A stretch of DNA of 64,000 bases from Acidimicrobiaceae bacterium (lineage in GTDB: Bacteria; Actinomycetota; Acidimicrobiia; Acidimicrobiales; Aldehydirespiratoraceae), in assembly GCA_028819505.1 (NCBI GenBank), contig JAPPLH010000053.1:67563-131562 (forward strand), written 5' to 3'. Within the stretch, counting starts at the first letter, position 1; every line of letters starts with the position of its first letter. Positions 47,014 through 62,700 of this stretch are shown here, piece after piece. The notes below the pieces were generated by a model. That model did no database searches. It had not been told where the DNA came from and saw only the letters and a program-made list of their open reading frames with translations. Position numbers and translations under genes: made by a program.

Positions 47014-47841
47014 TCATCGCGGCATCCACCGGTCGCGCAGGGTGACCAGCACGGCCAGAGCCACCGCCATCAACACCAGGCTGATGGCCACCGCCGCCTC
47101 CGGGTCGCGCTCCAGGGCCAGGTAGGTCTCCAGCGGCAGGGTGCGGGTCCGGCCGGGGAAGCTGCCTGCGAACGTGAGCGTGGCCCCGAACTCGCCCAGA
47201 GCCCTCGCCCACGCCAGGGCGGTTCCGACCGCCAGCGCGGGACGGATCGTGGGCAGCGTGACGTGGGCCATGGTGGCCCAGGCGCCCGCGCCGAGGGTGG
47301 CGGCGGCCTCGTCGAGCCCGTCGCCGGCTTGGCGCAGGGCGGCCTCGACGGTCACCACGAAGAACGGGAGGGCCACGAAAGCGGCCGCCACCACCGACCC
47401 GGCCGTCGTGAACGGCAGGCTCACCCCGAACCACGAGTCGAGCCGCTGGCCCACCAGGCCCCGGCGGCCCAGCGCGAACAGCAGGGCGGTGCCCGCCACG
47501 ACGGGCGGCAGCACCATGGGCAGCATCACCACGGCCCTGACGATCCGGGGGAACCGCAGCCGGCGGCGGGCCAGCACGAGCGCGAGGGGGAGGCCCAGCA
47601 CTATGCAGGCTGCGGCAGCGGCCAGGCTGACGATCAACGAGACACGCAGTGCCTCCAGCACCTCGGACTCGCCCAGGATCGACGGGAGGGCCGACCACGG
47701 CGCCCGTTGCAGCAGACCGACGACGGGCAGCAGCAGCAGGCCGAGAGCAACAAGCCCGACCCAGGTCACCGCCGCGGGAAGCCGGCCGGCGGGCCTCGGC
47801 CCGGTGCCCGCCTCGGCTCGGACTCGGGTCGGGGAGCTCAC
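47014..47841 (-). CDS. modB: molybdate ABC transporter permease
   Basis: A 275-residue permease with five to six TM segments and the EAA loop DEAAATLGAGAWATMAHVTLP, followed by ARALGEFGATLTFAGSFPG, a strong ModB signature. It moves molybdate taken from ModA. It overlaps modA by 4 bases. The gap to modC is unusually long for this operon and is filled with repeats. Confidence 0.92.
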   Translation of the reverse strand: MSSPTRVRAEAGTGPRPAGRLPAAVTWVGLVALGLLLLPVVGLLQRAPWSALPSILGESEVLEALRVSLIVSLAAAAACIVLGLPLALVLARRRLRFPRIVRAVVMLPMVLPPVVAGTALLFALGRRGLVGQRLDSWFGVSLPFTTAGSVVAAAFVALPFFVVTVEAALRQAGDGLDEAAATLGAGAWATMAHVTLPTIRPALAVGTALAWARALGEFGATLTFAGSFPGRTRTLPLETYLALERDPEAAVAISLVLMAVALAVLVTLRDRWMPR

Positions 47842-48620
47842 GGCCGTCCGAACCCGTGCGCGTGCAGAGCCTCGGCGCCGCTGCTGCCGGGGTCGGTGAA
47901 GTCGTCGATGACCGTCTGCACCTCGGGTGCGGGCTCGTCGGCGATGGCGGCCATGTGGTAGCCGTTGCGGTGATCGAGCAGTTCGGGAGCGCCGACCGTG
48001 GCCAGTCCCGCCGTTCTCGCGTCGGTGGCGTACACCAACCCGGCGTCGAGCTCACCGAGCGAGATCTTGGCGGCCAGGGCCCGCACGTTGGGTTCCAGCG
48101 TGTCGGCAGAGGGTGTGACGCCCGCCTCGCCGAGTGCCCGCTGAGCCAGCGCGCCGCAGGGCACCTCGGCCGCGCACAGACCGACAAGAAGGCCCCTCCG
48201 GGACAGGTCGGCCAGACCGGTGACGCCGCCCGGATTGCCGGCCGGAGTGGCGAGGACGAGGTTGTTGGTGGCGATCAGGACGGGCTCGCCCCGGACCGAG
48301 CCCTCGGCGACGGCCCGGTCCATGGTGGCCGCATCGGCGGTGATCAGAACGTCGGCCTCGGCGCCGGCCGCGAGCTGGGCGACCAGCGTCGAGCTCGCCG
48401 CGAACACTGGAGTGACGCTCTCACGGCCCTCGAACACGGCTTCCAGCACATCAGACAGCGAAGAGGCGGCCATGACCACCACGCCGTCGTCTTCGGCGCG
48501 GCTGCCGGCCGTGCTGCCGCATCCGGCGGCCAGCATCGACGCCGACACCACCGCGGCCGCCACTGCCAGCCGCGCGGCCCGCGGCCGACGCCGGCGGCCG
48601 GTAATGGTGCCCCGCGCCAT
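47838..48620 (-). CDS. modA: molybdate-binding lipoprotein
   Basis: A 260-residue binding protein. A basic start and hydrophobic segment (ARLAVAAAVVSASMLAAG) lead to a lipobox Cys (AGCGS). The mature part shows VVMAASSLSDVLEAVF and FAASSTLVAQLAAGAEADVLITAD, the ModA oxyanion-binding loops. ATG 48620 gives a normal signal peptide; the frame is open to 48791 but the extra residues do not fit. Its upstream region has several palindromes. Confidence 0.9.
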   Translation of the reverse strand: MARGTITGRRRRPRAARLAVAAAVVSASMLAAGCGSTAGSRAEDDGVVVMAASSLSDVLEAVFEGRESVTPVFAASSTLVAQLAAGAEADVLITADAATMDRAVAEGSVRGEPVLIATNNLVLATPAGNPGGVTGLADLSRRGLLVGLCAAEVPCGALAQRALGEAGVTPSADTLEPNVRALAAKISLGELDAGLVYATDARTAGLATVGAPELLDHRNGYHMAAIADEPAPEVQTVIDDFTDPGSSGAEALHAHGFGRP

Positions 48621-48722
48621 AGTCCGCCGGATCAATCGAAGTAGCCATGGGGCGATCTTCCGCTGTCTCCCGCTCGGGAGCGAGCGTTCGAATCCTGGGA
48701 GACTGCTGAGCGATGCCCGATT

Positions 48723-48776
48723 TCGCGCGACACACAAGCCGTAGACCGGAGGTTTAGTGATCACGAAATCGCGATT
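48723..48776. promoter_or_regulatory. cluster of palindromes upstream of modA
   Basis: Three short perfect palindromes lie in the 178-base gap between drmC and modA: tcgcgcga (48723-48730), gtgatcac (48757-48764) and aatcgcgatt (48767-48776). They could be sites for a molybdate-responsive or other regulator of modA, or the end of the drmC transcript. No -10/-35 pair was identified with confidence. Confidence 0.4.
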
Positions 48777-48798
48777 CTGGGACTTGCTCATCTCTCTC

Positions 48799-49587
48799 CT
48801 AGGCGGCGGGCAGCGGCTTCAGGAGGCTGGCGTCGATCATGCCTTGGAAGTGGGTGGTGACGCTGGCGGCGAGGGCTCGGTCGCGGGTCAGGAGGCCGAG
48901 TTCGATGTTGCGGTCCAGCGCGGCATCCGTGAGGTTGGCAGAGGTGATGAAGACGGCTTCGTCGTCCACGACGACTGCCTTGGCGTGGAGGACGCCGGAT
49001 GGACCGTCGGGTTCGAGGGAGCGCGGGTCGTAGAAGACGGCCGGTCTGGAGGTGCCGGGCCAATCTGTTCCCCAGAAGCGGTCCGCGAATCGCCGTACGA
49101 GCTGGTCTGGTGCAGTGGTGTCGCCTCTGACTCGCTGGATGTTCAGCATGAGAACAACCCGCAGGCCGAGGATCTCTTCCATGCGCTGGGCGAGGTCCGC
49201 GAAGGCTCGGGGGCCGTCGAAGTAGACGTATGTGCTCATCCACACCGACTGGGTGGCGGTGCGCACGAGTTCCTCGTAGACGCGACGGGTGTCGCGGGCG
49301 TGGAGGCCGAGAACCTCCGGGCCTGACCACACCAGGTCGAGAGCCGGGACTCCGTCAGCGGCTCGATCCAGGGAGCGCACCCATGCCGAGACGGCACGCC
49401 CCGTGATTCCGACCTGCGCCAGTTCGGCTAGGTCGGCGGCGAGTTCGTCGGTCCCGGTCGGCATTCCCAGCACGGATCGCAGGGCGAGCGGCGAGGGGGC
49501 GTCGGGCAGGGCCCCGGTCTCGTAGGCGTCGGCGAGGCGCTTACGGAGGTGTGCTGGGAGAGCCGCGACTCGGCTGCCTGGGGCCAT
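48799..49587 (-). CDS. drmC: DISARM PLD-family protein DrmC
   Basis: A 262-residue phospholipase D-fold protein with one HKD motif (LHAKAVVVDDEAVFITSANLT split over H201, K203 and D208), as in DrmC of DISARM phage-defence systems. PLD-family proteins may act as nucleases; DrmC is reported to be dispensable for some DISARM activity. It follows drmB by about 20 bases. An in-frame GTG at 49590 directly precedes the ATG and may be used instead. Confidence 0.85.
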   Translation of the reverse strand: MAPGSRVAALPAHLRKRLADAYETGALPDAPSPLALRSVLGMPTGTDELAADLAELAQVGITGRAVSAWVRSLDRAADGVPALDLVWSGPEVLGLHARDTRRVYEELVRTATQSVWMSTYVYFDGPRAFADLAQRMEEILGLRVVLMLNIQRVRGDTTAPDQLVRRFADRFWGTDWPGTSRPAVFYDPRSLEPDGPSGVLHAKAVVVDDEAVFITSANLTDAALDRNIELGLLTRDRALAASVTTHFQGMIDASLLKPLPAA

Positions 49588-49608
49588 CACGGTGTCACGC
49601 CGTCAGGC

Positions 49609-51396
49609 TCACGGCACAGGGAAGAACGCGGCGTCGGGCACTCCGAGCACGGGTACGACCAGAGCCCTGTCGAGGTAGTCGTTGCGCATCTCGCAGGAGG
49701 TCTCGGCGATCAGGGCGCAACCGTGGCAGGCGGCGCCGTGCAGGAAGCGCTGCTCCATGCCGTCGCCGGCGGCGTGCTGGGCGCAGATCGGGTCGTTGGA
49801 GCACAGCAGCGCCATCTCCAGCGCGTTGGCGAGGTGGTTCTCGATGTGGCGGGCCTGCTGCACTAGCCCGCCGAGCGTGCCTTCGGCGTCGGGGGTGCCG
49901 GTGTAGAGCAGCAGGCCGTGGTGGCCGTCCTCGACGTAGACCCGCTCGCGGATGGAGCTCGCCGGGTAGCCGCAGCGCATCGACATCGATTGGATCAGCA
50001 GGTGCGCCAGGGTGTGCAGCAGGATGTAGGGGCCGCCTGGGAACGGGCGTTGCCTGCGGCGGTCCTGCTGCCAAGCGTTGTGCTGAGCGAGGAGCCGGTC
50101 GAGGCGCTGGGCCACTGGCGCGCGCCTCAGCCACGCCCGAACCGCGGCTTGGCTGAGATGCACGAACACGCCTTCGCCACGGTTCTCCACCGCGGGGAAC
50201 CAGAGCGGCTCGACGGCGATGTCGGCGCGCTCCACGTCGGTGTCGTATTCGCCGTGGATGTCGCGCATGGCAGCCTCGAAGCGGGTGAACCCGATCAGCG
50301 CCTGGACCTCGCGCAGCCGGTGGAGTTGCACCACCGACTCGACGCCGCTGCTCAGCCGCGACTCGCCGTGCCGCCAGGAGATGTCGGGTAGTCGGCGGGC
50401 GTGGAAGTTTGGGTCAACGGGCACGTCGTCGCCGTAGCCCTCGGGAGCGGCGAGCAGCGCCTCGAGTTCGGCCACCTTGACGGGACGGTCGCCGGTGCCG
50501 CCTCGCTTCAGCCTCGCTATCGCCGTCAGTACCTCGTCGTCTGAGAACGCGCTCAGCCTTTCGGTGATCTTCGGCTTCTTCTTGATGAACTGCAAGTCAT
50601 CGGAGTCGTCCACGATCGCCAGGTCGTCCCACAGCTCGCGCACGGCCTGCTCGACGGCCGAGCCGCGGTCGGGCAGCGACAAGGCGCTCAGGACCTGAGC
50701 GAAGTAGGCGTTGGACGCTGTGCGGATGAGCAGCCGGCTCGGCTGGTCGCAGTCCTCGTCGGTGTCAAGGCCGAGCCACGGCCGCTTGCCCCGGCAGTAG
50801 CCGAGCGGCCTGCGCTCGAGCTCTGTCGCCTCGTACAGGCGCCGGGACTTCCCGCACTCGCACCGCACTACGAGTTCGGCCAGGTCGCCGGTGGTGCCGC
50901 GCTCGTCGAGCCATAGCTGGCGCCGGCAGCGCTCGCCGCGGCCGTGTGCGAACCCGGACCAGTCGAGGTCATCCACATGGCCTCGGGGGCAGGCTCGCAC
51001 GAAGCGGGTCGGCACCACGGCTTTGCTGTCGAAGCGGCGTCGCTCGTCCAGCGCCAGGCGGTGCACGAGGCGCCGGGAGCGCTGACGTTCGGGGTCGCCG
51101 TCGTCGTCCTGGACCACGAACCACTCCGGGAAGCTCCACGCACCGATCCCCTGACCCGGCGACCAGGGATCCGGGGGCTCCGGCGGCGGTGCGTACATCC
51201 GAGGGGACGCGACACCGGTGACGGCCCGGAGCAAGCCGGTGAGCCGCTCGTCGACAATCTCCTCCAGGCTGCCGGTGTAGGGCCATGTCTCGAGCCCGGC
51301 GACTATGGCTGCGTGCTCGGGCAGGTCCAAGAGTGCACCCGGCCCGTAGGTGGTGATCACCTGGCTCTGGCGGAGTTGCCCGTGGCCTCGGCTCAC
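49609..51396 (-). CDS. drmB: DISARM protein DrmB (DUF1998)
   Basis: A 595-residue protein of the DUF1998 family, a core DISARM component that forms a complex with the DrmA helicase and holds DNA. Cys clusters suggest zinc sites: CPRGH and RCECGK in the N-terminal half, and CSNDPIC, CHGC and TSCEMRNDYLDR at the C-terminus, the last being the typical DUF1998 ending. The GTG start at 51396 (VSRGHGQLRQSQVITTYGPG) matches the conserved N-terminus; further upstream the open frame is a shadow of drmA. The gap to drmA is 64 bases. Confidence 0.9.
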   Translation of the reverse strand: MSRGHGQLRQSQVITTYGPGALLDLPEHAAIVAGLETWPYTGSLEEIVDERLTGLLRAVTGVASPRMYAPPPEPPDPWSPGQGIGAWSFPEWFVVQDDDGDPERQRSRRLVHRLALDERRRFDSKAVVPTRFVRACPRGHVDDLDWSGFAHGRGERCRRQLWLDERGTTGDLAELVVRCECGKSRRLYEATELERRPLGYCRGKRPWLGLDTDEDCDQPSRLLIRTASNAYFAQVLSALSLPDRGSAVEQAVRELWDDLAIVDDSDDLQFIKKKPKITERLSAFSDDEVLTAIARLKRGGTGDRPVKVAELEALLAAPEGYGDDVPVDPNFHARRLPDISWRHGESRLSSGVESVVQLHRLREVQALIGFTRFEAAMRDIHGEYDTDVERADIAVEPLWFPAVENRGEGVFVHLSQAAVRAWLRRAPVAQRLDRLLAQHNAWQQDRRRQRPFPGGPYILLHTLAHLLIQSMSMRCGYPASSIRERVYVEDGHHGLLLYTGTPDAEGTLGGLVQQARHIENHLANALEMALLCSNDPICAQHAAGDGMEQRFLHGAACHGCALIAETSCEMRNDYLDRALVVPVLGVPDAAFFPVP

Positions 51397-51460
51397 GGCT
51401 CGCCCCCACCGGACCCGGAGCCGCAGCCTGCCACGGCTGCGGAGAGGATGCGGGCGCGGT

Positions 51461-54400
51461 TCATGATCCGTCGGCCTTGCGGGACGCCGACAGGGGCTTG
51501 ATGTAGAGGTCCACTTCGGGTTCCACGTCGCGCAGTGAGCGGTTGGCCCGGAACTTGCGCTGGTGGGGCGACTCGAAGTCCTCTTCGAGCATCTCGCGCA
51601 GCAGAGGCCGGGGCGTGCGAAGCTCGTACTTCTGGTACTGGACCTCGGCGTTGGCGTCCCGGTAGTCCTCGACCACCGTGAGCCACGAGTCGAGCAGGTC
51701 GACGATGCGGGACCGGACGCTGCGCAGCCGTTCGGCCCGCTCGGCCTCATCCGCGAAGGGCTGGCGGTCCACGCGGTCGATGAAGAACCCGAGAAGGGCG
51801 CGCTCGACGTCGACACGCGTCGCAGCCAGCGACTCGACACCCCTGGGAGGTGTCAAGGTCGCGTCGGCGTGCCGGGCCAGCCCCACCATCGCCCCGGCGA
51901 GGCCGCGGTCGAGGGCGCGGGCCGAGAACGGCGTCACGCTCGACACCTCGACTGACCGGTAGAAGGTCTCGTGGTAGTGGCGGAATCGCTCGTAGTGCGA
52001 CCGGTCCCGCGGCTTGTGCACGTTGAGCAGGGTGACCACCAGCCCCGGCTTGTCGTCGACCCGGCCCACCCGGCTGGTGGCCTGGATGTACTCTGCGTGG
52101 GTCTTGGGCTGGCCGAGCACGACCATGAGTCCCAGCCGCGGAATGTCGAGGCCGACCGAGATCATGTTGGTGGCGATCGCGCTGTCCACCCGTCCCTGCT
52201 CGTGGGCGCCGCGGCTCAGCCGCGCCCGAGCCTGTGCCACCTTGTCGGTGGACACCCGGGAGGTCAACTCCACGACCTCCGACATGGTCCTGCGGTCCTG
52301 GAATAGGCCACGGGCCTCGCCGATGCGCTTGCGCAGGCCGTAGGTCTTGACGGTGTTCTGGACCTCCTCCTCAAGGATGCGGCGGGCCCCGCCGAGTTCG
52401 CGCAGGCTGTTGAAGTAGCCGAGCACCGTCATGTACGGATCAGCGGGATTGCGCTCGTTGCGGTGCCCTCCGGCGTCTCGGTAGGCCCGCTCGGCTGCGC
52501 CCATCAGCGCCAGCCAGACCCGCCGCATGAGCACCTTGGGGTTGCGTCCCGGCGACGCGATACCCAGATACATGCGCCCTGGCAGTCGGTCCAGTGGCAC
52601 GACCTGCGCGAAGAATGAGTCCCGGCGGTCGGGTCCCGGCGGCGGGAACACCTCCGTGAGCGACCGAGCGAACAGCGCCTGTATCTGGTCCTGGGCCTGC
52701 CGGACGGTGGCGGTGGACGCCACGATCTTTGGGCGCGCCGGCCGGGCGACGGGGTCCTCGGAGGCGTCGACCGGGTGCTCCGAGGCCCGCACGCACAGGG
52801 CCTCAATAGCGGTCTCATACAGGCCCACCATCGTGCCGAGCGGTCCCGATATGAGATGCAACTCGTCCTGGATCACTAGATCGGGTCCGTCCAGCGGCCG
52901 CTCCAGCGGACTCCCCCGTCTCGGCTCGGCGGCGCTGTAGAAGCCGCTGCCGTCGAAGCGGTCCGCGCCGCCGAGCAGGGCGCCGGTCTGGCCGGTGAAC
53001 GGAAGCGACGCGAACTTGTCCACGGTGGCGATGAGGAACGCCGGCAGGCGCCGGTAGATCGGCTGGTCCACTGCCAGTATCGGCAGCGGCCGGTCGCCGC
53101 TGAAGTCGCACTCGAAGTTGGCGCAGACGATCCTCAGCTCGCTCGGCTGATCGTCGTCGGGCAAGAGCGTGAACGACGCCGGCTCGAACCGGGTTCCGCA
53201 CCACGGGCAACTCTCGAGCGGAATGGGCATCGGCTTGCCGGGGTCGCTCTTGAACCGTCGGGTCTTGGAGCGGGCGGTGTCGGATCGGCTGTCGCCCTTG
53301 CGGCCCATCACGTTGGGAGTGGCTGCCTTGCCGACCCACAGGCCGATCTCGATGGGCCATCTGCCGAAACGAGCCGGGTCGGCCTCGCGTTCAAGCTCCA
53401 GCGCGCACACGAGGCCCGCGGCCCGGCCGAACTGGTCGAGGGTGAGCAGCCGCAGCGTGTAGCGCATGATCACCGCTACCCCTGCCCCTTGCCGGCCTTC
53501 CTGTCCCGGCCACCGCAGCCGTCGCAGCATGATCGTGAAGGCGGCCAGCCCCAGGTACGCCTCGGTCTTGCCGCCACCGGTAGGGAAGAACAACAGATCG
53601 ACGATCTCACGCTCGGGACTGCGCCTATCGGCCAATCCGCCGACATTCAGCAGGATGAACGCGAGCTGGAAGGCCCGCCACTGCGGCGCCTCTTCGCCCG
53701 AACGCCAGCGGAGAGCCCGGGCCACGGCCCGGTTCGCCACCTTGAACGCGTCCAGCGCGTCCGGGTCCTCGACCAGCACGCCGATGCCCCGCTCGATGCG
53801 GTCCGCGGCCATCCCCGCCCGTCGCAGCAGTTCCTCACCGACGGCGTGGCGGTCACCGCCTAGAGCATCGAGCCCGTCGCGCTGCTGGCCGATCCATGTG
53901 CGGTAGCGGTCCACCAGAGGTTGCAGTGCCTCGGATGCGGTCCGCCCGTCGGCAAGCGCGCCGAGCTTCTCCATGGACAGCTCGGCACCGGGCACCGACG
54001 CGGTCTCAGTCTTGGCCACCGTGGCGCCCGGAATCCAGGCCGTGCGCAGCACCCGGCACCCGCCTTCGCCGATCTCCCAGTCCGCCGAGGTTCCGTGACC
54101 GACGGCGTACTCGGGAACGTCCGCGTAGTGGAGGTCGGCGACCTGGTCGTCCCACTCGGTGGCCAGCACGCCGCGGGGGTCGGGCCGTGGCACGAACGGT
54201 ACCTGGCCCACCACCTCTAGTTCCGCTTGGAAGACGTAAGCCTGCTCGACGTCGCCTCCGCTCTCGGGATCGTCGGGGCGTCCGGCCACTGAGGGCCGAT
54301 TGTTGACGAGGAACACCGACACCGACCGTGTGCCCTCATCGAGGCCCGCGAGCCGCGCCGTGTCGACCGGCCGGACTGCAACGTGCAGCCTGAGGCCGCC

Positions 54401-54910
54401 CGACTGCGGGACCGGATGGTCGGCGACTGCCTTGGAGAGGGCGACCGACACGGTGCGCTCCTGCGGCTCGCGCTGCCACACCGGCACCGTGTCGCCGTCC
54501 GGGCCTTCGTGCTCGGCCTTGCGGTAGTCGCCCCACCGCACCGTGACTGTCAGTTCCTCGGCAGCGTCGGGCACGAGGAAGCTCAGCCCGATCGACGACG
54601 GGAAGAAGCCCTTCTTGGCGGCAGTCCGCTCCTCGGTGGACTCCTCGGCCAGCCCCGCCACAGTCGGGGTCTCATCCAGCGGGTCGTCCTCGTCGGCATC
54701 GGAACGCTGCTCGGGCGGCGCATCCGAAGGCACCAGGAACCCTGTCAAGTACCAGTTCGACGGACGCACCCACCCCGGCAGCCGCTCCTCGGCCAGTTCA
54801 TGGCCCGCGCCCGGCCCCACCAGGTCAAGCCTCAGCGCCTCCGCTAGGTAATCGCGCACCTGCAGCGAGTCGGCGTCAACGAGAGCGGGAGGCGAGGTGA
54901 CAGCGTTCAT
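51461..54910 (-). CDS. drmA: DISARM helicase DrmA
   Basis: A 1149-residue SF2 helicase, the core motor of DISARM. Walker A is FFPTGGGKTEAYLG (about 441-449), the DEAH-type box is VIQDELHLISG (about 680) and motif VI is IQATSRVGR (about 945). A Cys-rich insertion (CPWCGTRFEP and CANFECDF, about 567-600) may bind zinc. The N-terminus MNAVTSPPALVDADSLQVRD leads into a helicase-specific N-domain. In known DISARM the DrmAB complex stays autoinhibited until it meets DNA ends. The upstream small gene overlaps its start by 35 bases if read to its annotated stop. Confidence 0.92.
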   Translation of the reverse strand: MNAVTSPPALVDADSLQVRDYLAEALRLDLVGPGAGHELAEERLPGWVRPSNWYLTGFLVPSDAPPEQRSDADEDDPLDETPTVAGLAEESTEERTAAKKGFFPSSIGLSFLVPDAAEELTVTVRWGDYRKAEHEGPDGDTVPVWQREPQERTVSVALSKAVADHPVPQSGGLRLHVAVRPVDTARLAGLDEGTRSVSVFLVNNRPSVAGRPDDPESGGDVEQAYVFQAELEVVGQVPFVPRPDPRGVLATEWDDQVADLHYADVPEYAVGHGTSADWEIGEGGCRVLRTAWIPGATVAKTETASVPGAELSMEKLGALADGRTASEALQPLVDRYRTWIGQQRDGLDALGGDRHAVGEELLRRAGMAADRIERGIGVLVEDPDALDAFKVANRAVARALRWRSGEEAPQWRAFQLAFILLNVGGLADRRSPEREIVDLLFFPTGGGKTEAYLGLAAFTIMLRRLRWPGQEGRQGAGVAVIMRYTLRLLTLDQFGRAAGLVCALELEREADPARFGRWPIEIGLWVGKAATPNVMGRKGDSRSDTARSKTRRFKSDPGKPMPIPLESCPWCGTRFEPASFTLLPDDDQPSELRIVCANFECDFSGDRPLPILAVDQPIYRRLPAFLIATVDKFASLPFTGQTGALLGGADRFDGSGFYSAAEPRRGSPLERPLDGPDLVIQDELHLISGPLGTMVGLYETAIEALCVRASEHPVDASEDPVARPARPKIVASTATVRQAQDQIQALFARSLTEVFPPPGPDRRDSFFAQVVPLDRLPGRMYLGIASPGRNPKVLMRRVWLALMGAAERAYRDAGGHRNERNPADPYMTVLGYFNSLRELGGARRILEEEVQNTVKTYGLRKRIGEARGLFQDRRTMSEVVELTSRVSTDKVAQARARLSRGAHEQGRVDSAIATNMISVGLDIPRLGLMVVLGQPKTHAEYIQATSRVGRVDDKPGLVVTLLNVHKPRDRSHYERFRHYHETFYRSVEVSSVTPFSARALDRGLAGAMVGLARHADATLTPPRGVESLAATRVDVERALLGFFIDRVDRQPFADEAERAERLRSVRSRIVDLLDSWLTVVEDYRDANAEVQYQKYELRTPRPLLREMLEEDFESPHQRKFRANRSLRDVEPEVDLYIKPLSASRKADGS

Positions 54911-55235
54911 CTGGCAAGCACACCCCGTCGCACTGTGACCGGCAAGCGGGATGTATCCGGAGTGGTGTCGAAGTCTCAGAAGTCATCGAAGAGCATCGGT
55001 GCTTCGTTGACTGCGGCCTCGATGTTCGTTCTGTTGAGCCGGCAATATCGCGAAGGGCTGAGACGGTCGGCTCGTCGGCCGCGACGAGCAGTCCTCGGCC
55101 GAGCGACTCCAACTCGTATCCGGCCGTGCGCAGGACCGGCCGCACGGCGGTGATGTCGGGGAGGTCCTCGAGCGCCCACAGCAGGACGTTGAGTTGGAAT
55201 ACGGGATCGGTGACGAGAACCGCGTCGGAGGTCAT
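54876..55235 (-). CDS. small hypothetical protein upstream of drmA, possibly frameshifted
   Basis: As read, 119 residues starting MTSDAVLVTDPVFQLNVLLW. The first ~67 residues look like a real alpha/beta protein. After ADEPTVSALRDIAG the codon use turns poor, while another frame gives LNRTNIEAAVNEAPMLFDDF and a stop at 54976 with normal GC-rich codons. A single-base change near 55037 would restore an ~86-residue protein ending 65 bases before drmA. So this is either a frameshifted gene, a sequence error, or a genuine longer form. The start overlaps the upstream gene stop by 4 bases (ATGA). The function is unknown. Confidence 0.55.
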   Translation of the reverse strand: MTSDAVLVTDPVFQLNVLLWALEDLPDITAVRPVLRTAGYELESLGRGLLVAADEPTVSALRDIAGSTERTSRPQSTKHRCSSMTSETSTPLRIHPACRSQCDGVCLPDERCHLASRSR

Positions 55236-56455
55236 GCGGCGATGCCGGCGGCATCGGCCACCGCCTGCTCGTAGGGCTCGCTGCCGAGCCAGGCTCTCGC
55301 GGTCGGAGCCAGCTCCCGTTGCACGTTGGTGACGAGCCGGTGGACTGTGTTCCCGCAGGTGCCGTGGGGCAGCACAGCGAGGAGATGCTGGCTGGTGGCC
55401 TCCAGTAGGAACGGTTGCCACAGGTGCCGGTCCACGGCAACGACATGTGCCTTGGTGGGCCCACGACGCGTGACGAAGCCTCCGATACGGAAGCGGCTCG
55501 TCCGTCGTTCGAGCGCGAGCTCGACGAAACGGTTGAACAGCGGCTCGCTCAGAGGCTCGCCGAAGTCGATTACCAGGGGGCTGCCGCGAATCTTGTACCC
55601 GTCATGGCCGGCGTCGGTGGTATCGACCCAGAGGCGGGCTTCGGCGTACTCGGTGACGCTGCGGTAGAGCGCGAGCACGCGCCGCACCGTTGCCCGGTGG
55701 TCGGCGAACGAGTCGCTGCGGTTCGTGGCGCGGCCGTCGTAGTTGAGGCGGTGGCCACCACGGCCGGCCGCTGGCATCTGCAGGTGCACCAGCGAGCGCA
55801 GCGGATCGTAGGAATCGATCAGCCGCTGCAGCTTCGCCTCCAGCACCGACAGGCTCTCGGTGAGCGTCACCACTGAGCGTCGGCGCTCCGCAAGGGCGTG
55901 CGGCGTCTCGTAGTCGGCATCGTCGGCGCCGTCGTCCTCGGTGCCCACGTCGAGACCGTCGATCGGCTCATAGCGCGCCTCGTGCTCGAATCCGAGCCGC
56001 GCGTAGCGCTGCGGCGGCGTGGTCGCTTGCACCTGCCGCCACAGCTCGAACAGGATCGGCGACGACAGCCAGAGCCGGTCGAGCCACGGGCTGGTGTCCA
56101 CCGTTTGGCGCACCCATCGGTCACTGTGCTCGACGGCCATCTTCGTGTAGAAGACGGGGTGCCTTTCATCGAGTTCCTCGATCAGGCCGACCACCTGGCC
56201 GCCGTGGCCAGCGTCCTCGACACGGAACAACGTGTCGTCGAGACGGTGAAGATGCACACGCCCGGCGAACCTGCTGGCCAGGTCAGGCATCTGTTGGTTG
56301 CTGCCCGCGGTCTCCAGCATGTAAGTCTTGACCAGTTTGCGGCCCGCGTCGGGGTGCTCGATGTCCGCCGCGGCGAACACGGGATGGCCCTCCAGGTAGT
56401 CGACGAACTCGCTGCGCCTCTCCAGCCGCGGCAGGTATCCGACATCGTCGGTCAT
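55232..56455 (-). CDS. hypothetical protein of DISARM locus
   Basis: A 407-residue soluble protein, MTDDVGYLPRLERRSEFVDY onward, with no motif I recognise. It is rich in Arg, Asp and Tyr, with a long helical middle (VVTLTESLSVLEAKLQRLIDSYDPLR) and a possible catalytic or structural region HLWQPFLLEATSQHLLAVLPHGTC split near the C-terminus. It is translationally coupled (ATGA) to the small gene before drmA, so both are probably part of the drmABC transcript. The large gap upstream holds its promoter. It may be an undescribed DISARM accessory protein. Confidence 0.75.
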   Translation of the reverse strand: MTDDVGYLPRLERRSEFVDYLEGHPVFAAADIEHPDAGRKLVKTYMLETAGSNQQMPDLASRFAGRVHLHRLDDTLFRVEDAGHGGQVVGLIEELDERHPVFYTKMAVEHSDRWVRQTVDTSPWLDRLWLSSPILFELWRQVQATTPPQRYARLGFEHEARYEPIDGLDVGTEDDGADDADYETPHALAERRRSVVTLTESLSVLEAKLQRLIDSYDPLRSLVHLQMPAAGRGGHRLNYDGRATNRSDSFADHRATVRRVLALYRSVTEYAEARLWVDTTDAGHDGYKIRGSPLVIDFGEPLSEPLFNRFVELALERRTSRFRIGGFVTRRGPTKAHVVAVDRHLWQPFLLEATSQHLLAVLPHGTCGNTVHRLVTNVQRELAPTARAWLGSEPYEQAVADAAGIAA

Positions 56456-56553
56456 GGCCGACAGCGTAGGCCGTGCCCCATCCCTCACCCCGCTGAGCCA
56501 CGGCCGAGGCACCGCTATGGCGGATCAGCCCTCCCAGCCCGGCGGTTGTGTCC

Positions 56554-56605
56554 GGTAGTTGTGCGTTGTGTCGGGTAGTTGTGCGTTGTGTCGTCCAGTT
56601 GTGCG
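56554..56605 (+). repeat. 20-base tandem repeat, two exact copies and a partial third
   Basis: The unit ggtagttgtgcgttgtgtcg occurs at 56554-56573 and 56574-56593, followed by a partial match (agttgtgcgg) to about 56605. The position between divergent defence genes suggests an operator array, but it may be a simple replication-slippage repeat. Confidence 0.85.
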
Positions 56606-57031: not shown

Positions 57032-57418
57032 GTGCGGTCCCCGACACGGCGCCGGGCCAGAAGGCGTGTGAGGTCCGTGCCTGCGGACGCTGACCTCGAC
57101 GCCGTGGCCGCTCGCGTCTCCTACCGCGGAAGCCCCGAGCACAAAGACATGATTACTTCGGCGGGAATGCCGCGTCCGCGTGGGGACGCTTCGATCTGCC
57201 CGCGCGAGTACAACGACATGGAACTGGCGACCGGTTGGCTACGGTCGGCCATCCGAGCCGGCTCGACCGGCGAACCGTGGGAGGGCGGCTTCCCGCGCTA
57301 CGTCTGGCATCGGGAGTGGGACACCGTCTTCGAGGCCAGGCTCGTCAACCGCGGCAACGGCTCCTACAAGGGGTATCCCCTGAAGGACCGCGAGCGACCA
57401 CCCCACTTGGCGGTTTGA
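57032..57418 (+). CDS. hypothetical protein paired with IrrE-like gene
   Basis: A protein of up to 128 residues. The N-terminus from GTG 57032 is very basic (RSPTRRRARRRVRS); the likely domain runs from about DLDAVAARVSYRGSPEHK through CPREYNDMELATGWLRSAI to FEARLVNRGNGSYKGYPL. I recall no named family. The start is uncertain; a later start is possible. It is on the plus strand, opposite to the DISARM genes, and ends two bases before the next gene, so the two form a cassette inserted in the island. Confidence 0.6.
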   Translation: MRSPTRRRARRRVRSVPADADLDAVAARVSYRGSPEHKDMITSAGMPRPRGDASICPREYNDMELATGWLRSAIRAGSTGEPWEGGFPRYVWHREWDTVFEARLVNRGNGSYKGYPLKDRERPPHLAV

Positions 57419-57420
57419 CG

Positions 57421-58722
57421 ATGGCCGGCATCAGTTTCCAGATCGACTGGCAGGACGGTGACGGACTGAAGGGCACCGAGTTGGCTGCGACGTTCGCGTC
57501 GCTGAGGATCGATGTGCAGGGCGAGACGCTGACCCAGGTCTTCGATTCGTGGGCGCGGACCGTGCGGGACCATTTGTTCGTACCGCTCTACCCCATCGCC
57601 GAATGGCTGGCCTCCAACTGGTGGTTCCTGTTGTTCGAGCACGAGAACGTCGTCAAGTGCGACGACCCGGCGTTCGCTTACAGACATTCGCTGGGCACCG
57701 CTGCCGACGGCTACGCGGTTCCCGACCTGACCGTAGTCGCGTCCGGCGCGCGGACACAGCTGAGATGGGCCCCTCAGCCGCAGCCATGGACCCGTGTCAA
57801 GTTCTTGAACTCGGGTTCCGCGATCGTGGATCGCGGGCAGTTCAGGCAGGATTGCGCGGACTTCGTCGACACCGTGATTCGCAGGCTGCTGGCGCACGGC
57901 ATCGGCTCGACGTTCCTGCAGGACGAGTGGACTGCCATACAGGCAGCGGACGACGAAGAGGCCAGCTTCTGCGAAATGTCGGCCGGGCTGGGCTGGGACC
58001 CCTACGACCTTGACGACGACTCGCGGGATAGGGTCATCTCGCTGTCGGAGCAGTTGGGGGATCTGAGCGAGGAAGCGGTCCCCGTAATCGATTCTGCCGA
58101 CCCTTCGAAGGATTGCTCTGCGATTCTGGCCGCCATCCGGGCCGCCAAGCCGAACGTGCTCCTCACCGACGACTCACTGCCTTCATTCATCCCCCACCAG
58201 TCCACCGCGGAACGGCCCTGGGAGGGTGGCTATCGACTCGCCCGGGAGGCGAGAAGCGAGTTCGGCCTCGACGGCCTACCCATTCCCGACACCGAGTCGC
58301 TGGCGTCCGCACTCAACCAGAGTTTGGCAACGCTGAGGCGCGCGACGGAGCCGGTCGCAGCCCTGGACGGCCTGCAACTGGTCGACGGCGTGGTGACGCG
58401 GGGCGCCTCCGGGGGAATGTCGCTCGGCCTGAAGGCAAGGGGCGAGACCGGCATGCGGTTCTTGTTGTGCCGCGCGCTCTGCGAAGCGATCTCTTCGCAC
58501 CAGGACTCGCTCGTGACCAGGGGCACGACCCAACGACAACAGCGCAACCGGGCATTCGCGGCCGAGTTCCTGGCGCCCGCCCGGAGCCTGAGGGAGCGCA
58601 TCACGCATCCGATCGTGGACGCGGAGCAAGTCGACGACCTAGCCGAGGAGTTCGGCGTGTCCACCCAGGTCATCCTCAACCAGATCGAGAACCACCGGAT
58701 CGCCCAGTTCTCCGCCATTTGA
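57421..58722 (+). CDS. hypothetical protein with degenerate IrrE-like C-terminal region
   Basis: A 433-residue protein. The N-terminal part (FQIDWQDGDG, then VFDSWARTVRDHLFVPLYPIAEWL split by NWWFLLFEH) looks like a conserved family I cannot name. The C-terminus (NRAFAAEFLAPARSLRERI, then VDDLAEEFGVSTQVILNQIENH) strongly resembles the tail of ImmA/IrrE peptidases, but the preceding zinc motif HExxH is missing: the equivalent stretch reads CRALCEAISSH. So it is probably not an active protease but may keep the sensing or binding role. It pairs with the upstream small gene and is convergent to the TIR-like gene. Confidence 0.65.
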   Translation: MAGISFQIDWQDGDGLKGTELAATFASLRIDVQGETLTQVFDSWARTVRDHLFVPLYPIAEWLASNWWFLLFEHENVVKCDDPAFAYRHSLGTAADGYAVPDLTVVASGARTQLRWAPQPQPWTRVKFLNSGSAIVDRGQFRQDCADFVDTVIRRLLAHGIGSTFLQDEWTAIQAADDEEASFCEMSAGLGWDPYDLDDDSRDRVISLSEQLGDLSEEAVPVIDSADPSKDCSAILAAIRAAKPNVLLTDDSLPSFIPHQSTAERPWEGGYRLAREARSEFGLDGLPIPDTESLASALNQSLATLRRATEPVAALDGLQLVDGVVTRGASGGMSLGLKARGETGMRFLLCRALCEAISSHQDSLVTRGTTQRQQRNRAFAAEFLAPARSLRERITHPIVDAEQVDDLAEEFGVSTQVILNQIENHRIAQFSAI

Positions 58723-58846
58723 GAGCGAGCGCATAGCCGCTGTGAACGAGATACGGCTGCCGCCCAACGTGGGAACCGTAGCTGGCACCCCCCATACACG
58801 CCAGCATGAAGACGCCGCCCCATCCGCCGCCGAGTGATCCCCCCGT

Positions 58847-59290
58847 CTAACGCCCGGCGGCCTCCGCAGCCTCCTCTATCCAGGCACCCATGTTCTTGTA
58901 TCCGTCGTCCTTGTACCACAGATAGAACGAGTAGCCTTTCGGAATCTTGCCGCACCGCTCCGTAGTGTTGCCGTTCAAGTCCTTTATCTTGCTAATATCG
59001 ATCCCTAGTAGTCCATTGCCCCGTTCTTCGCTCTGTTCGATTTCATACTTGACATACTTGCTAGAGCAAGTGCGAGATCCCACCAAGACAACCGTGACAG
59101 ATGTATTGCGAAGCTGATCTCTGATCCACCTCTTGATCGCTGGTTCTCCACCCTTCTTGATTTCTTCGAAGTCTGCTGCATCAATGAAGCCGGCAGCATC
59201 CTTTCCCTGCGTTACCCAGCTATTCCGAACTACGTTAGCGCGAGATGCATCGTGGTCGTACTCGAAGCTGAAGAAGACTCTACGGGCCAT
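58847..59290 (-). CDS. TIR-like domain protein (DUF1863/ThsB type)
   Basis: A 147-residue protein consisting almost wholly of a TIR-like domain of the MTH538/DUF1863 group: RRVFFSFEYDHDASRANVV, NSWV, AADFEEIKKGG, TSVTVVLVGSRTCSSKYVKY and E83 in YEIEQS, at the place of the catalytic Glu of TIR NADases. ThsB proteins of the Thoeris defence system are of this kind; on phage sensing they make a cyclic ADP-ribose-type signal from NAD. The start at ATG 59290 has gaggagg upstream. Base composition is visibly more A/T-rich than neighbours, a sign of transfer. Its partner is the membrane protein encoded 19 bases upstream, not a ThsA. Confidence 0.85.
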   Translation of the reverse strand: MARRVFFSFEYDHDASRANVVRNSWVTQGKDAAGFIDAADFEEIKKGGEPAIKRWIRDQLRNTSVTVVLVGSRTCSSKYVKYEIEQSEERGNGLLGIDISKIKDLNGNTTERCGKIPKGYSFYLWYKDDGYKNMGAWIEEAAEAAGR

Positions 59291-59309
59291 TCTGAATTAC
59301 CTCCTCAGG

Positions 59310-59705
59310 TCAGATTAGGGTTGAAGCCAGGACGACAGCTACAAGGACCGCCAAGTAGAAGGAAAAGAGTGTTCTTGAGAAGAAGGAACTGTGCCACGTA
59401 AGCCTCCGGCCGGTGAAGGTGTCGGTCTGCATTGAGAAGTCGATCTCGTGTGGGTCCAGCACCCTCACATGGTCGTAGAGGGCCCGGTACAGGCGCTCCT
59501 GGCGCAGGAAGTAGGCGTCGAGTCCCCAGAACACCAGAGCGGGCACGAGCCCGATCAGCGCGGCCTCGCCACTGCCCTCCCGTACTGTGAGCACCAAGAT
59601 CGCGGAGACCAGCACGACGCTCCACTCCTTCAATCGGAACGAGTTGAAGGCCATGCGGTCGATCACGCCTTGGATCAACTCAAGGTGCTTCAACTTGGCT
59701 TCCAT
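59310..59705 (-). CDS. small three-TM membrane protein, partner of TIR-like protein
   Basis: A 131-residue protein. It begins with a helical stretch (MEAKLKHLELIQGVIDRMAF), then TM1 (SVVLVSAILVLTV), TM2 (AALIGLVPALVFWGLDAYF), a soluble loop (LRQERLYRALYDHVRVLD) and a C-terminal TM3 (FYLAVLVAVVLAS). I recall similar proteins beside TIR-like genes, but not a named function. ATG 59705 is preferred for its aggagg with 8-base spacing; a GTG/ATG at 59744/59741 overlapping the drmMI stop is the alternative. It may be the membrane effector of a TIR-signalled abortive response. That role is inference. Confidence 0.7.
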   Translation of the reverse strand: MEAKLKHLELIQGVIDRMAFNSFRLKEWSVVLVSAILVLTVREGSGEAALIGLVPALVFWGLDAYFLRQERLYRALYDHVRVLDPHEIDFSMQTDTFTGRRLTWHSSFFSRTLFSFYLAVLVAVVLASTLI

Positions 59706-59740
59706 GGTGCCATCCTCCTGATGGTCCTCGGCTTGCGTCA

Positions 59741-62700
59741 TCACTGGCTACCAGAAATCGAGTCCGCCTCGAAGAGGGTGGCGGTCCCTGTACCCGGCCT
59801 TGACCGGCGTGCCTGCCCACGGCGGTCTCCCTTGCCCTTCTTGCCGCGCGTCAGGCGGGCCCGGGCCTCCTCTGCAGCTCGCTCAGCGTTGAGTTCCAGC
59901 AGTCGGGCGAGCACCTCGTCGCGGACGTCGTCGGGCCAGCGGTAGCGGTACGGCTTCTTCTTGTTGCCCCAAGTCGCCTCGTCGATCTCGTAGTCGAGCA
60001 GAAACTCGCAGTCGGTCGGGATGTCGTCCCAGCCGTAGGCGTCCAAGACGGCTCTGTCCATTGCAGCGTGCAGGCGGCGCAGGTCCAAGATGTCGGAGTC
60101 TTCCTCGTACGGGTCGTGGAACCGGTTGTAGGTCTTGGTCATCCCCGCATCGTTCCGCACCATCAGCGCCGCACGAAACTCGTAGTACTCCTGGCCGACC
60201 ACTTCCAAGTCAGATCTTGTCTCCCAGTCCTGTGGAAACGGAAACGTCTCAAAGCAGTCCGAAGGTGTATATCGAAGTCGTTCCTCCAGTGATGAAGCGA
60301 AGAAGATCGCCCATATCTCATGAGGGCGCGACTGCAGCGTACAGAAGGCAGCATATGTGTCGAGCGGATAGACATTCAATGTATGGCCGTAGACCATCTT
60401 GGAATGCAGGAAGGCAAACTGCACACGTTGACTAACCTGCGAGTTGGCAAGAACACGCTCACGGTCGTCAATTGCGTCCTTCAACAGCGGTCTATCGTTG
60501 GCATAATTCCACCAGCGTGACTTATGGCTACGATCAATCGGCGAATTCCCGAGCGACTCTCGATATGGCTTTACATTTTGCTCAACTATCTTGAGCAGTT
60601 CCGGCCAGTCTTCGGCAACGCTTGCCGGGTAGTCAGTCGGGACGACTCCCGCACGTAGCCATGCCCGTCGGTTCGTATCATCTGCGACCGTCCAATTTAG
60701 TTCTAGGGGAGCACGGCGCAGCGGATAGTTCCAGAAGTTTATCGCATAGCGATGGTGCGAATGAGTTGGATGAGAATTTAACTCCTCGCCACCGATATAT
60801 GGAAATAGCACCTCGCGATTCCGAGCATCTTCTGAGAGCAACCGATCCATCTCAGAGAGAGGGCTCGTAACATCACTATGTCCGCTATCGTCGAATGTGA
60901 ATCCCATACCTCGCAGGAAGCTACCAACGAAACTCTTGCCCCCATTCGCTTCTAGTCGAACTGGATCATCATTGGTTCCTCTGTGAAACAGAAAGGCTGT
61001 GATCTTTGTGACTTCATCGTCATCAAGACGAGGTTGTCTGGAGCATCGACCCCGGCTGACATGGACTACACTCACGACCACAGCAGCCGATCCGGGCCAC
61101 TTGACGCGTCGTCGAGCATCATATATTTCACCACTGTTCGTGCAGATCCAGAGTAAGCCTCCTGCTCGTGTATCGCCCTGCGCTATTGTGTTTGTGGCGA
61201 TCAACCCCGAAGTTCCGCCGATACGGATCAGATCGAAGGAGCGCCTAAAGAAATGGGCGACCAGATCAGAGTTTCGATTGGCTCCTTGGTGGAGCATGGA
61301 GAACCAATCGCGGCACTCTGAACCGAGTACTGTACTGATTCGCTTGCCGCCGAGGAAAGGTGGGTTGCCGACTATGGTGTCGAAGCCGGGGTTGTCTCGG
61401 TCGAAGACTTCGGGGAATTCGATTTGCCAGTGGAAGGGGGCCAGTGGTGTATCGGCGTTGCGCAGATCGCCCAGCCATGGGCGGTATGTGTCTGCTTCAC
61501 CGTCGATGACCTTGGCGGCGAACTCCTTTCGTCGGGCTTCGCGCTCCTTGGGCTTGGGCTTGTCGAAGAAGGCGGCGACCACGAGATCGCCGAGTAGGCG
61601 GACGGCTGCTGTCTCAGATTGGGCTTCGTCCCACAACTCTCGCAACTCGCCGTCGGACACGGAGTCGTCGGCCTCGCGGATGAGCTGGCGCAACCCGGCC
61701 GCCTTGTCCAAGTGGGCGCGTCCTCTCAGGGCTTCGAAGCCTTCCTCGAAGTGTGAGGCATCGCCCTTCCAGTGGAAGGCCTGAAGCTGCGGGATCGACA
61801 GGCCTACCAACGAGTCGCCGTGGCGCAGAACATGGTCGAGGAAGGTCAGCGGGTGCTCCTTGGCGAGGGTGGTTAGCCACAGCGACAGCTTGGCTAGATC
61901 CACCGCTTTGGGGTTGCGATCAACCCCGTACAGGCAGCGCTGAGCGACCTGACGGCGAGCGAAGATCACCTCGTCCTCGTCGGAGGGGATTCCTGGCGCT
62001 TCGCCGTGGGCCCGCCAGGACTCGATTAGGGCGTCTGCGAGCTGGCGGCACGCCTCCACGAGGAACGCGCCTGATCCCATGGCCGGGTCGCACACCTTGA
62101 GGTCGAGGATCTGCTCGGGGCGCAGCGGGCCGTCGGCTTCCTGCTGCAGGCGGTCGAAGATGGGCTCCAGCGCGATCCGCACGATCGGCTCGGTCAGCTC
62201 CCGCGGGGTGTAGTGCGAGCCTGAGCGACGACGCTCCTCGCTGGGCTGCAGCACCATGGAACCCGCTGGCACAAGATCAGGTGTGGCGTTCTTGTCGATG
62301 ACAGAATCTAAGGCGGCGTGCAGCGCATCGATCGTGCCGCCGGCCTGGAGGTCGACCTGCTGGACGGCCTTGCTGACGTTAGTCGTGAGCTTGCGGTCAG
62401 TGCGGTCCCGGAGCCACTTCGCCCGTTTGGTCGGGGCCTCGGCCAGAAGTTCCTCGACGTTGATCGTGGCTGGGGCGCCGTGCCTTTTGGCGGCCTTGAT
62501 GGCGATGCTCTGCCCGGCGGCGGTCTCGAGCCGGAAGCCCATCATGGTCTCGTAGACCGAGCCGATGTGCTCCACATCCAGGGCCCGATAGGAGATCCGC
62601 TCGGCATCGAGCACGATCAGCTTCTCGAGCACTCGGTGAATGGTGCCGTCGGACACAAGGGGCGGATCGATGCGCTCCTCCACCTGACGCACATCTCCTC

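Follow-up and report, generated by a model that had tools for sequence, protein, structure and literature searches.

The window, by which we mean the whole stretch of 64,000 nucleotides that was analysed, comes from contig C35 of G000, an Acidimicrobiia-type draft genome of 3.7 Mb (94% complete), and carries DISARM genes on its minus strand. The original prediction singled out two genes directly ahead of drmA, encoding a 407-residue protein (here P1) and a small protein, as candidate DISARM accessory factors. The genes and features that bear on this claim are the following.

48799..49590, minus strand: drmC (PLD-type nuclease; NF038319 over cut-off)
49609..51400, minus strand: drmB (DUF1998/MZB; NF038324 540 bits from ORF residue 154)
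51461..54910, minus strand: drmA (DISARM helicase, DrmAS type; NF038325 1112 bits, over cut-off; PADLOC DrmA 3.5e-264)
54876..55235, minus strand: ORF of the predicted small protein, 119 aa, made of a P2 stump and out-of-frame residues and running 35 nt into drmA
54976..55035, minus strand: P2 remnant, C-terminal part, out of frame with the N-terminal part (sequence and alignment)
55035..55036, minus strand: deletion junction, 805 bp of the relative L002 absent, PD...ExK core included (DNA alignment)
55036..55235, minus strand: in-frame remnant (~66 aa) of the N-terminus of P2, a PD-(D/E)XK nuclease-like protein
55232..56455, minus strand: P1, 407-aa protein with an ATG start, first gene of a two-gene module; matches phrog_22469
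56463..56468, minus strand: TACGCT, -10-like element (leaderless-type promoter), 7 nt before the P1 start codon
59741..63934, minus strand: drmMI (class 1 DISARM methyltransferase; PADLOC DrmMI 1283 bits)

PADLOC firmly assigns DrmA, DrmB, DrmC and DrmMI, and NCBIfam does so for the first three; the true start of drmB is uncertain and lies somewhere inside the ORF 49609-51840 (minus strand). We found drmD just upstream of the window edge, with a product 95% identical to the DrmD of L002, and therefore a complete class 1 DISARM is present here. The gene order is drmD, drmMI, P1, drmA, drmB, drmC, such that all five class 1 genes surround P1. In addition, modA/modB-like molybdate-type ABC transporter genes follow immediately after drmC (47014-48791, minus strand), and a second, distant drmA/drmB-like pair is present in the same genome (G000:C40:5900-9852). 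Between drmMI and P1, the opposite strand carries an ORF of 495 aa (57235-58722, plus strand) that has a C-terminal IrrE/M78-type peptidase domain and gives a weak match to PADLOC RmrA. The G+C content drops to 0.57-0.62 at 58000-62000, across the end of drmMI and adjoining ORFs, compared with ~0.70 elsewhere, which suggests recent acquisition of this part.

As originally predicted, the 407-aa ORF at 55232-56455 (minus strand) is joined by an ATGA overlap to the ORF starting at 55235, and the two lead into drmA on the same strand. The claim that P1 is not one of the Drm proteins was also confirmed, since no PADLOC or NCBIfam model matched it at E 0.1, which rules out P1 as DrmA, B, C, D, E, MI or MII. 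The locus is thus like class 1 DISARM in having DrmD, DrmMI, DrmA, DrmB and DrmC all around P1, whereas P1 and its partner P2, described below, fall in no Drm family; in a 2025 survey of the DISARM helicase family (PMC12458937) we saw no mention of such a DISARM partner. No known domain or family was detected in P1 with Pfam, NCBIfam or PADLOC, and its sequence had no match in the PDB. The predicted structure of P1 (pLDDT 78.6) gave no Foldseek match at E <= 0.001, its TBP-like and RnlA-like matches being weak only. The order of secondary-structure elements and these weak matches had raised the idea of three TBP-like repeats, which was rejected after hhalign profile self-comparison of the three parts gave no repeat. 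In PHROGs, phrog_22469 matched 7 of the 15 scanned proteins (best E 2e-53), a number equal to that of the P1 members in the set, and phrog_27163 matched two; judging from these counts, the former is P1 and the latter probably P2. PHROGs thus clusters both proteins without a function, as unnamed phage-protein clusters, and their pairing is not recorded there.

The small protein, on the other hand, proved not to be the product of a gene. When the window proteins were compared by tblastn with P1-bearing relatives, consistent matches were confined to the N-terminal ~70 residues encoded by the small ORF. At the same site L002, L003 and L019 have a single open frame of 354-362 aa, and L002, L003 and L018 carry 900-970 bp extra between the end of the matching part and drmA, the extra DNA in L018 being unrelated sequence. 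Aligned with L002, the window DNA is in register to ...GGCTC and picks up again at AACAGAACG...; the 805 bp that L002 has in between are absent. Since 805 is not divisible by three, the C-terminal P2 remnant is out of frame: the true P2 C-terminus (...NRTNIEAAVNEAPMLFDDF*) persists in another frame and ends at 54976, and the last ~50 residues of the small ORF are out-of-frame noise. A different deletion in the P2 gene was found in L008, whose P1 is 99% identical to that of the window, and between the window and L008 the share of replacement changes is higher in the N-terminal stump than in P1 (9:8 versus 7:28, p = 0.025). Because of the N-terminal-only match, the frameshifting deletion and the higher replacement share, we consider this second ORF a pseudogene remnant and reject it as a real gene; ~66 of its residues match the N-terminus of the ~355-aa protein of the relatives and the rest is frameshifted. 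As a general caution, when a small reading frame is coupled to a defence gene, it can be no more than the scar of a deletion.

Intact P2 proteins of close relatives are ~355 aa long and carry a PD...ExK nuclease motif. In an alignment of 14 intact members, drawn from Acidimicrobiia, two Bacillota, Halobacterium and Methanocaldococcus, P75, D76 and E91 were each conserved in at least 90% and K93 was invariant. The AlphaFold2 model of an intact P2 (pLDDT 85.5) gave sub-threshold Foldseek matches (all E > 0.001) to McrC, Can2, Bax1 and MGME1, all of them PD-(D/E)XK enzymes. P2 resembles these nucleases in its P-D...E/D-x-K signature and in a weak structural similarity, and differs from them in having no consistent Pfam family match and no significant structural match; the motif and the weak fold matches make it a probable PD-(D/E)XK nuclease-like protein. 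The same model also gave weak sub-threshold matches to the C-terminal domain of Cdt1, itself a winged helix, and from these the C-terminal part of P2 looks like a winged helix. In the window copy the catalytic motif is gone, as it lay inside the 805-bp deletion.

P1 and P2 are closely tied to each other. Of 395 Acidimicrobiia genomes, 12 have P1, and the 11 that have P2 are all among these 12. Outside this class, P1 homologues (19-30% identity) are followed immediately by a P2 homologue. The P1-P2 gene order, mostly with an overlap, was seen again in Metabacillus, Lysinibacillus, Halobacterium and Methanocaldococcus (M. jannaschii), in each case on a plasmid, and on a prophage-like contig (L026). 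On this contig the pair adjoins a gene that is ImmA-like and the beginning of another that is integrase-like, as judged from their sequence. A phylum-wide Actinomycetota sample of 396 genomes gave P1 matches only in two f1-family genomes, and a tblastn search of annotated phage genomes with the prophage-like P1 copy gave none; no part of the P2 alignment reached the conservation required for a scan of viral sequences. Pfam, NCBIfam and PADLOC held no model, or nothing convincing, for P1-P2, which is thus an uncatalogued nuclease-like two-gene module common to bacteria, archaea and phages. We also observed a C-terminal P1 fragment on a viral contig (L025:1405-3618), beside two DNA methyltransferase-like genes of which the longer is, by eye, apparently interrupted by an intein-like stretch. 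Furthermore, in the clade of L010, L012 and L016 an HNH/DUF222 protein is encoded directly 5' of P1 (identified in L012, the others belonging to the same cluster), and in L010 the P1 region is present a second time, in degraded form.

Several P1 copies away from DISARM have other defence genes next to them. A type I restriction-modification system adjoins P1 in L005, L006 and L013, and Gabija-like GajA and UvrD helicase genes adjoin it in L007, L011 and L013. In L012 (1319-8463), genes for a PLD-SNF2 helicase and a type IIG/DrmMI-like methyltransferase lie just upstream of the HNH/DUF222 gene and an intact P1-P2, and the neighbours of the M. jannaschii pair are HsdR and an OLD-type nuclease gene. 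Some P1 copies have no recognised defence neighbour. The restriction-modification, Gabija-like and nuclease neighbours therefore point to defence islands, a location that provides circumstantial support for a defensive role of P1-P2.

As regards DISARM itself, P1 adjoins class 1 DISARM in 8 of 24 loci in the P1 tree, all eight in Acidimicrobiia, and these copies fall in two supported clades with two different positions. In one, comprising the window, L002, L003, L008 and L018 and also a copy not linked to DISARM (L014), P1 precedes drmA. In the other (L009, L015, L017), P1-P2 precedes drmD; in L009 the P2 stop overlaps the drmD start, and in L015 drmD is the only DISARM gene on the contig. A real DrmA (E < 1e-60) is present in 6 of the 12 P1-bearing Acidimicrobiia genomes versus 21 of 395 overall (Fisher p ~8e-6, kinship ignored). 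Conversely, only 6 of those 21 genomes carry P1, which adjoins DISARM genes in 4 of them, and G388, a genome of the same genus as that of the window, carries P1-P2 intact and has no DrmA. Thus, the proposed co-occurrence with drmA stands in part: P1 and DrmA are found together above chance, and in two clades, but 16 of the 24 loci lie away from drmA. The pair is not specific to DISARM, since all copies from outside Acidimicrobiia are away from drmA and most DISARM genomes of the class have no P1. We conclude that the association between P1 and DISARM is real but local, that it arose at least twice, and that it concerns a minority of P1 copies. P1 may have a part in DNA loading or self-recognition with DrmAB, as had been proposed, but nothing here specifically points to either.

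The P1 gene appears to have transcription signals of its own. A hexamer (TACGCT, TACGAT or TAGCAT) is found 7-9 nt 5' of the P1 start in all Acidimicrobiia P1 loci inspected, while the sequence farther upstream differs among these loci. Within the window, TANNNT occurs at a P1-like distance from 7 of 3678 ATG/GTG triplets, and the drmA start has no such -10-like element. Leaderless transcription is known in Actinobacteria (PMC3160421), and the spacing of the hexamer fits this mode, such that the element is a putative promoter and P1 probably heads a transcript running on into drmABC. Two further observations concern the same region. By eye, roughly three direct repeats of ~19 bp (tagttgtgcgttgtgtcgg), imperfect in sequence, lie at 56545-56604, between P1 and the divergent ORF; they were not seen in ~200 bp 5' of P1 in L008 or L002. 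In L011, ATA stands where the ATG start of P1 is usual (about 3198), and therefore a downstream start would be needed there; the start may have moved.

P2 is broken or missing in the DISARM-linked window, L008, L009, L015 and L018 and in the non-linked L011 and L013, while P1 is apparently intact in all seven loci (in L018 it is partial at the contig end). The breaks are of different kinds, the window and L008 having different deletions and L009, L015 and L018 being differently broken again, and no other P2 was found in the window's own genome (94% complete), which excludes a P2 acting in trans for that genome. Loss was seen in 5 of 8 DISARM-linked loci versus 2 of 18 others (p = 0.014, kinship ignored, small numbers), which is suggestive of P2 loss being commoner next to DISARM; P2 is intact in the DISARM-linked L002, L003 and L017, representing both clades. 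L011 and L013 share the junction of P2 loss, and therefore P2 was lost before their split. The P1 genes of these two differ by 19 replacement and 45 silent changes (dN 0.021, dS 0.168, dN/dS 0.126), and between the window and L008 the P1 dN/dS is about 0.08. Thus, in L011 and L013 P1 has been under purifying selection after complete loss of the adjacent P2, and its retention under selection implies that P1 alone still does something useful. The repeated loss of the nuclease with its partner kept amounts to a natural experiment, through which an independent role of P1 becomes testable.

Taking these results together, we consider it probable that P1-P2 is an independent nuclease module, probably defensive, which DISARM has captured twice and of which P1 keeps a role without the nuclease. 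Of a mobile module made up of two genes, P1 and the PD-(D/E)XK nuclease-like P2, the P1 half would then be what survives in the window. The module is most likely a small stand-alone system against foreign DNA in which P1 may recognise or hold nucleic acid and P2 may cut it. As a cassette with its own putative promoter, it would have been taken up by class 1 DISARM in Acidimicrobiia before drmA and, separately, before drmD, a double capture seen in both gene position and phylogeny. The nuclease gene would subsequently have been destroyed, as is evident from the deletions in the window and several relatives, with P1 staying intact under the purifying selection that is directly visible for one lineage pair. 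Left alone, P1 may act by binding DNA so as to block or mark it, or it may partner another nuclease such as that of DISARM. A toxin-antitoxin or addiction module of mobile elements, with P2 as the toxic nuclease and P1 as the antitoxin, could explain an overlapping gene pair with a nuclease-like product on plasmids and a prophage-like contig, and P2 was not found without P1, while P1 persists without P2. However, the loss of a toxin should be followed by decay of its antitoxin, and P1 of L011 and L013 has not been lost but is under constraint with no P2 next to it (dN/dS about 0.13); P1 is, moreover, large and strongly conserved, unlike most antitoxins, and we regard this explanation as improbable. 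We find it most improbable that P1 is just a passenger gene that serves housekeeping or the maintenance of an element (DNA repair, replication or transfer) and was brought close to DISARM by insertion hotspots: its sparse and patchy spread (12 of 395 genomes) and its varied neighbours, some with no link to defence, would suit such a passenger, but its finding, time and again, near defence systems of several unrelated kinds and its strict pairing with a PD-(D/E)XK-like protein would not.

The reading closest to the original prediction makes P1 a dedicated DISARM accessory factor that works with DrmAB, P2 being dispensable since DISARM supplies the effector. The two P1 clades adjoining DISARM operons in two positions, the co-occurrence with DrmA above expectation, the excess of broken P2 in DISARM-linked loci, and the promoter-like element that places the window P1 upstream of drmABC on the same strand all speak for it. 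We nevertheless hold it to be unlikely, as P1 does not show the consistent association with drmA and drmB that is expected of a DISARM accessory gene: most P1 copies have no adjoining DISARM and most DISARM genomes of the class have no P1, P2 was also lost in the non-DISARM lineage of L011 and L013, and DISARM-linked copies with an intact P2 exist in both clades. Rather unlikely, too, is that P1 represents a new family of portable DNA-recognition proteins able to change effectors: it would normally work with its own PD-(D/E)XK nuclease, and in DISARM it would direct or regulate DrmABC after shedding that nuclease; if so, DISARM would evolve by taking in sensors from other systems. A combination of a TBP-like protein with nuclease effectors is described for TOTE and TALON in the 2025 survey (PMC12458937). 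P1-P2 differs from these systems in lacking a TPR or OB-fold partner as well as its own helicase, and P1 in showing neither a significant match to TBP nor, when its parts are compared as profiles, an internal repeat; the pair resembles them in the TBP-like matches, weak but recurring, of the P1 model.
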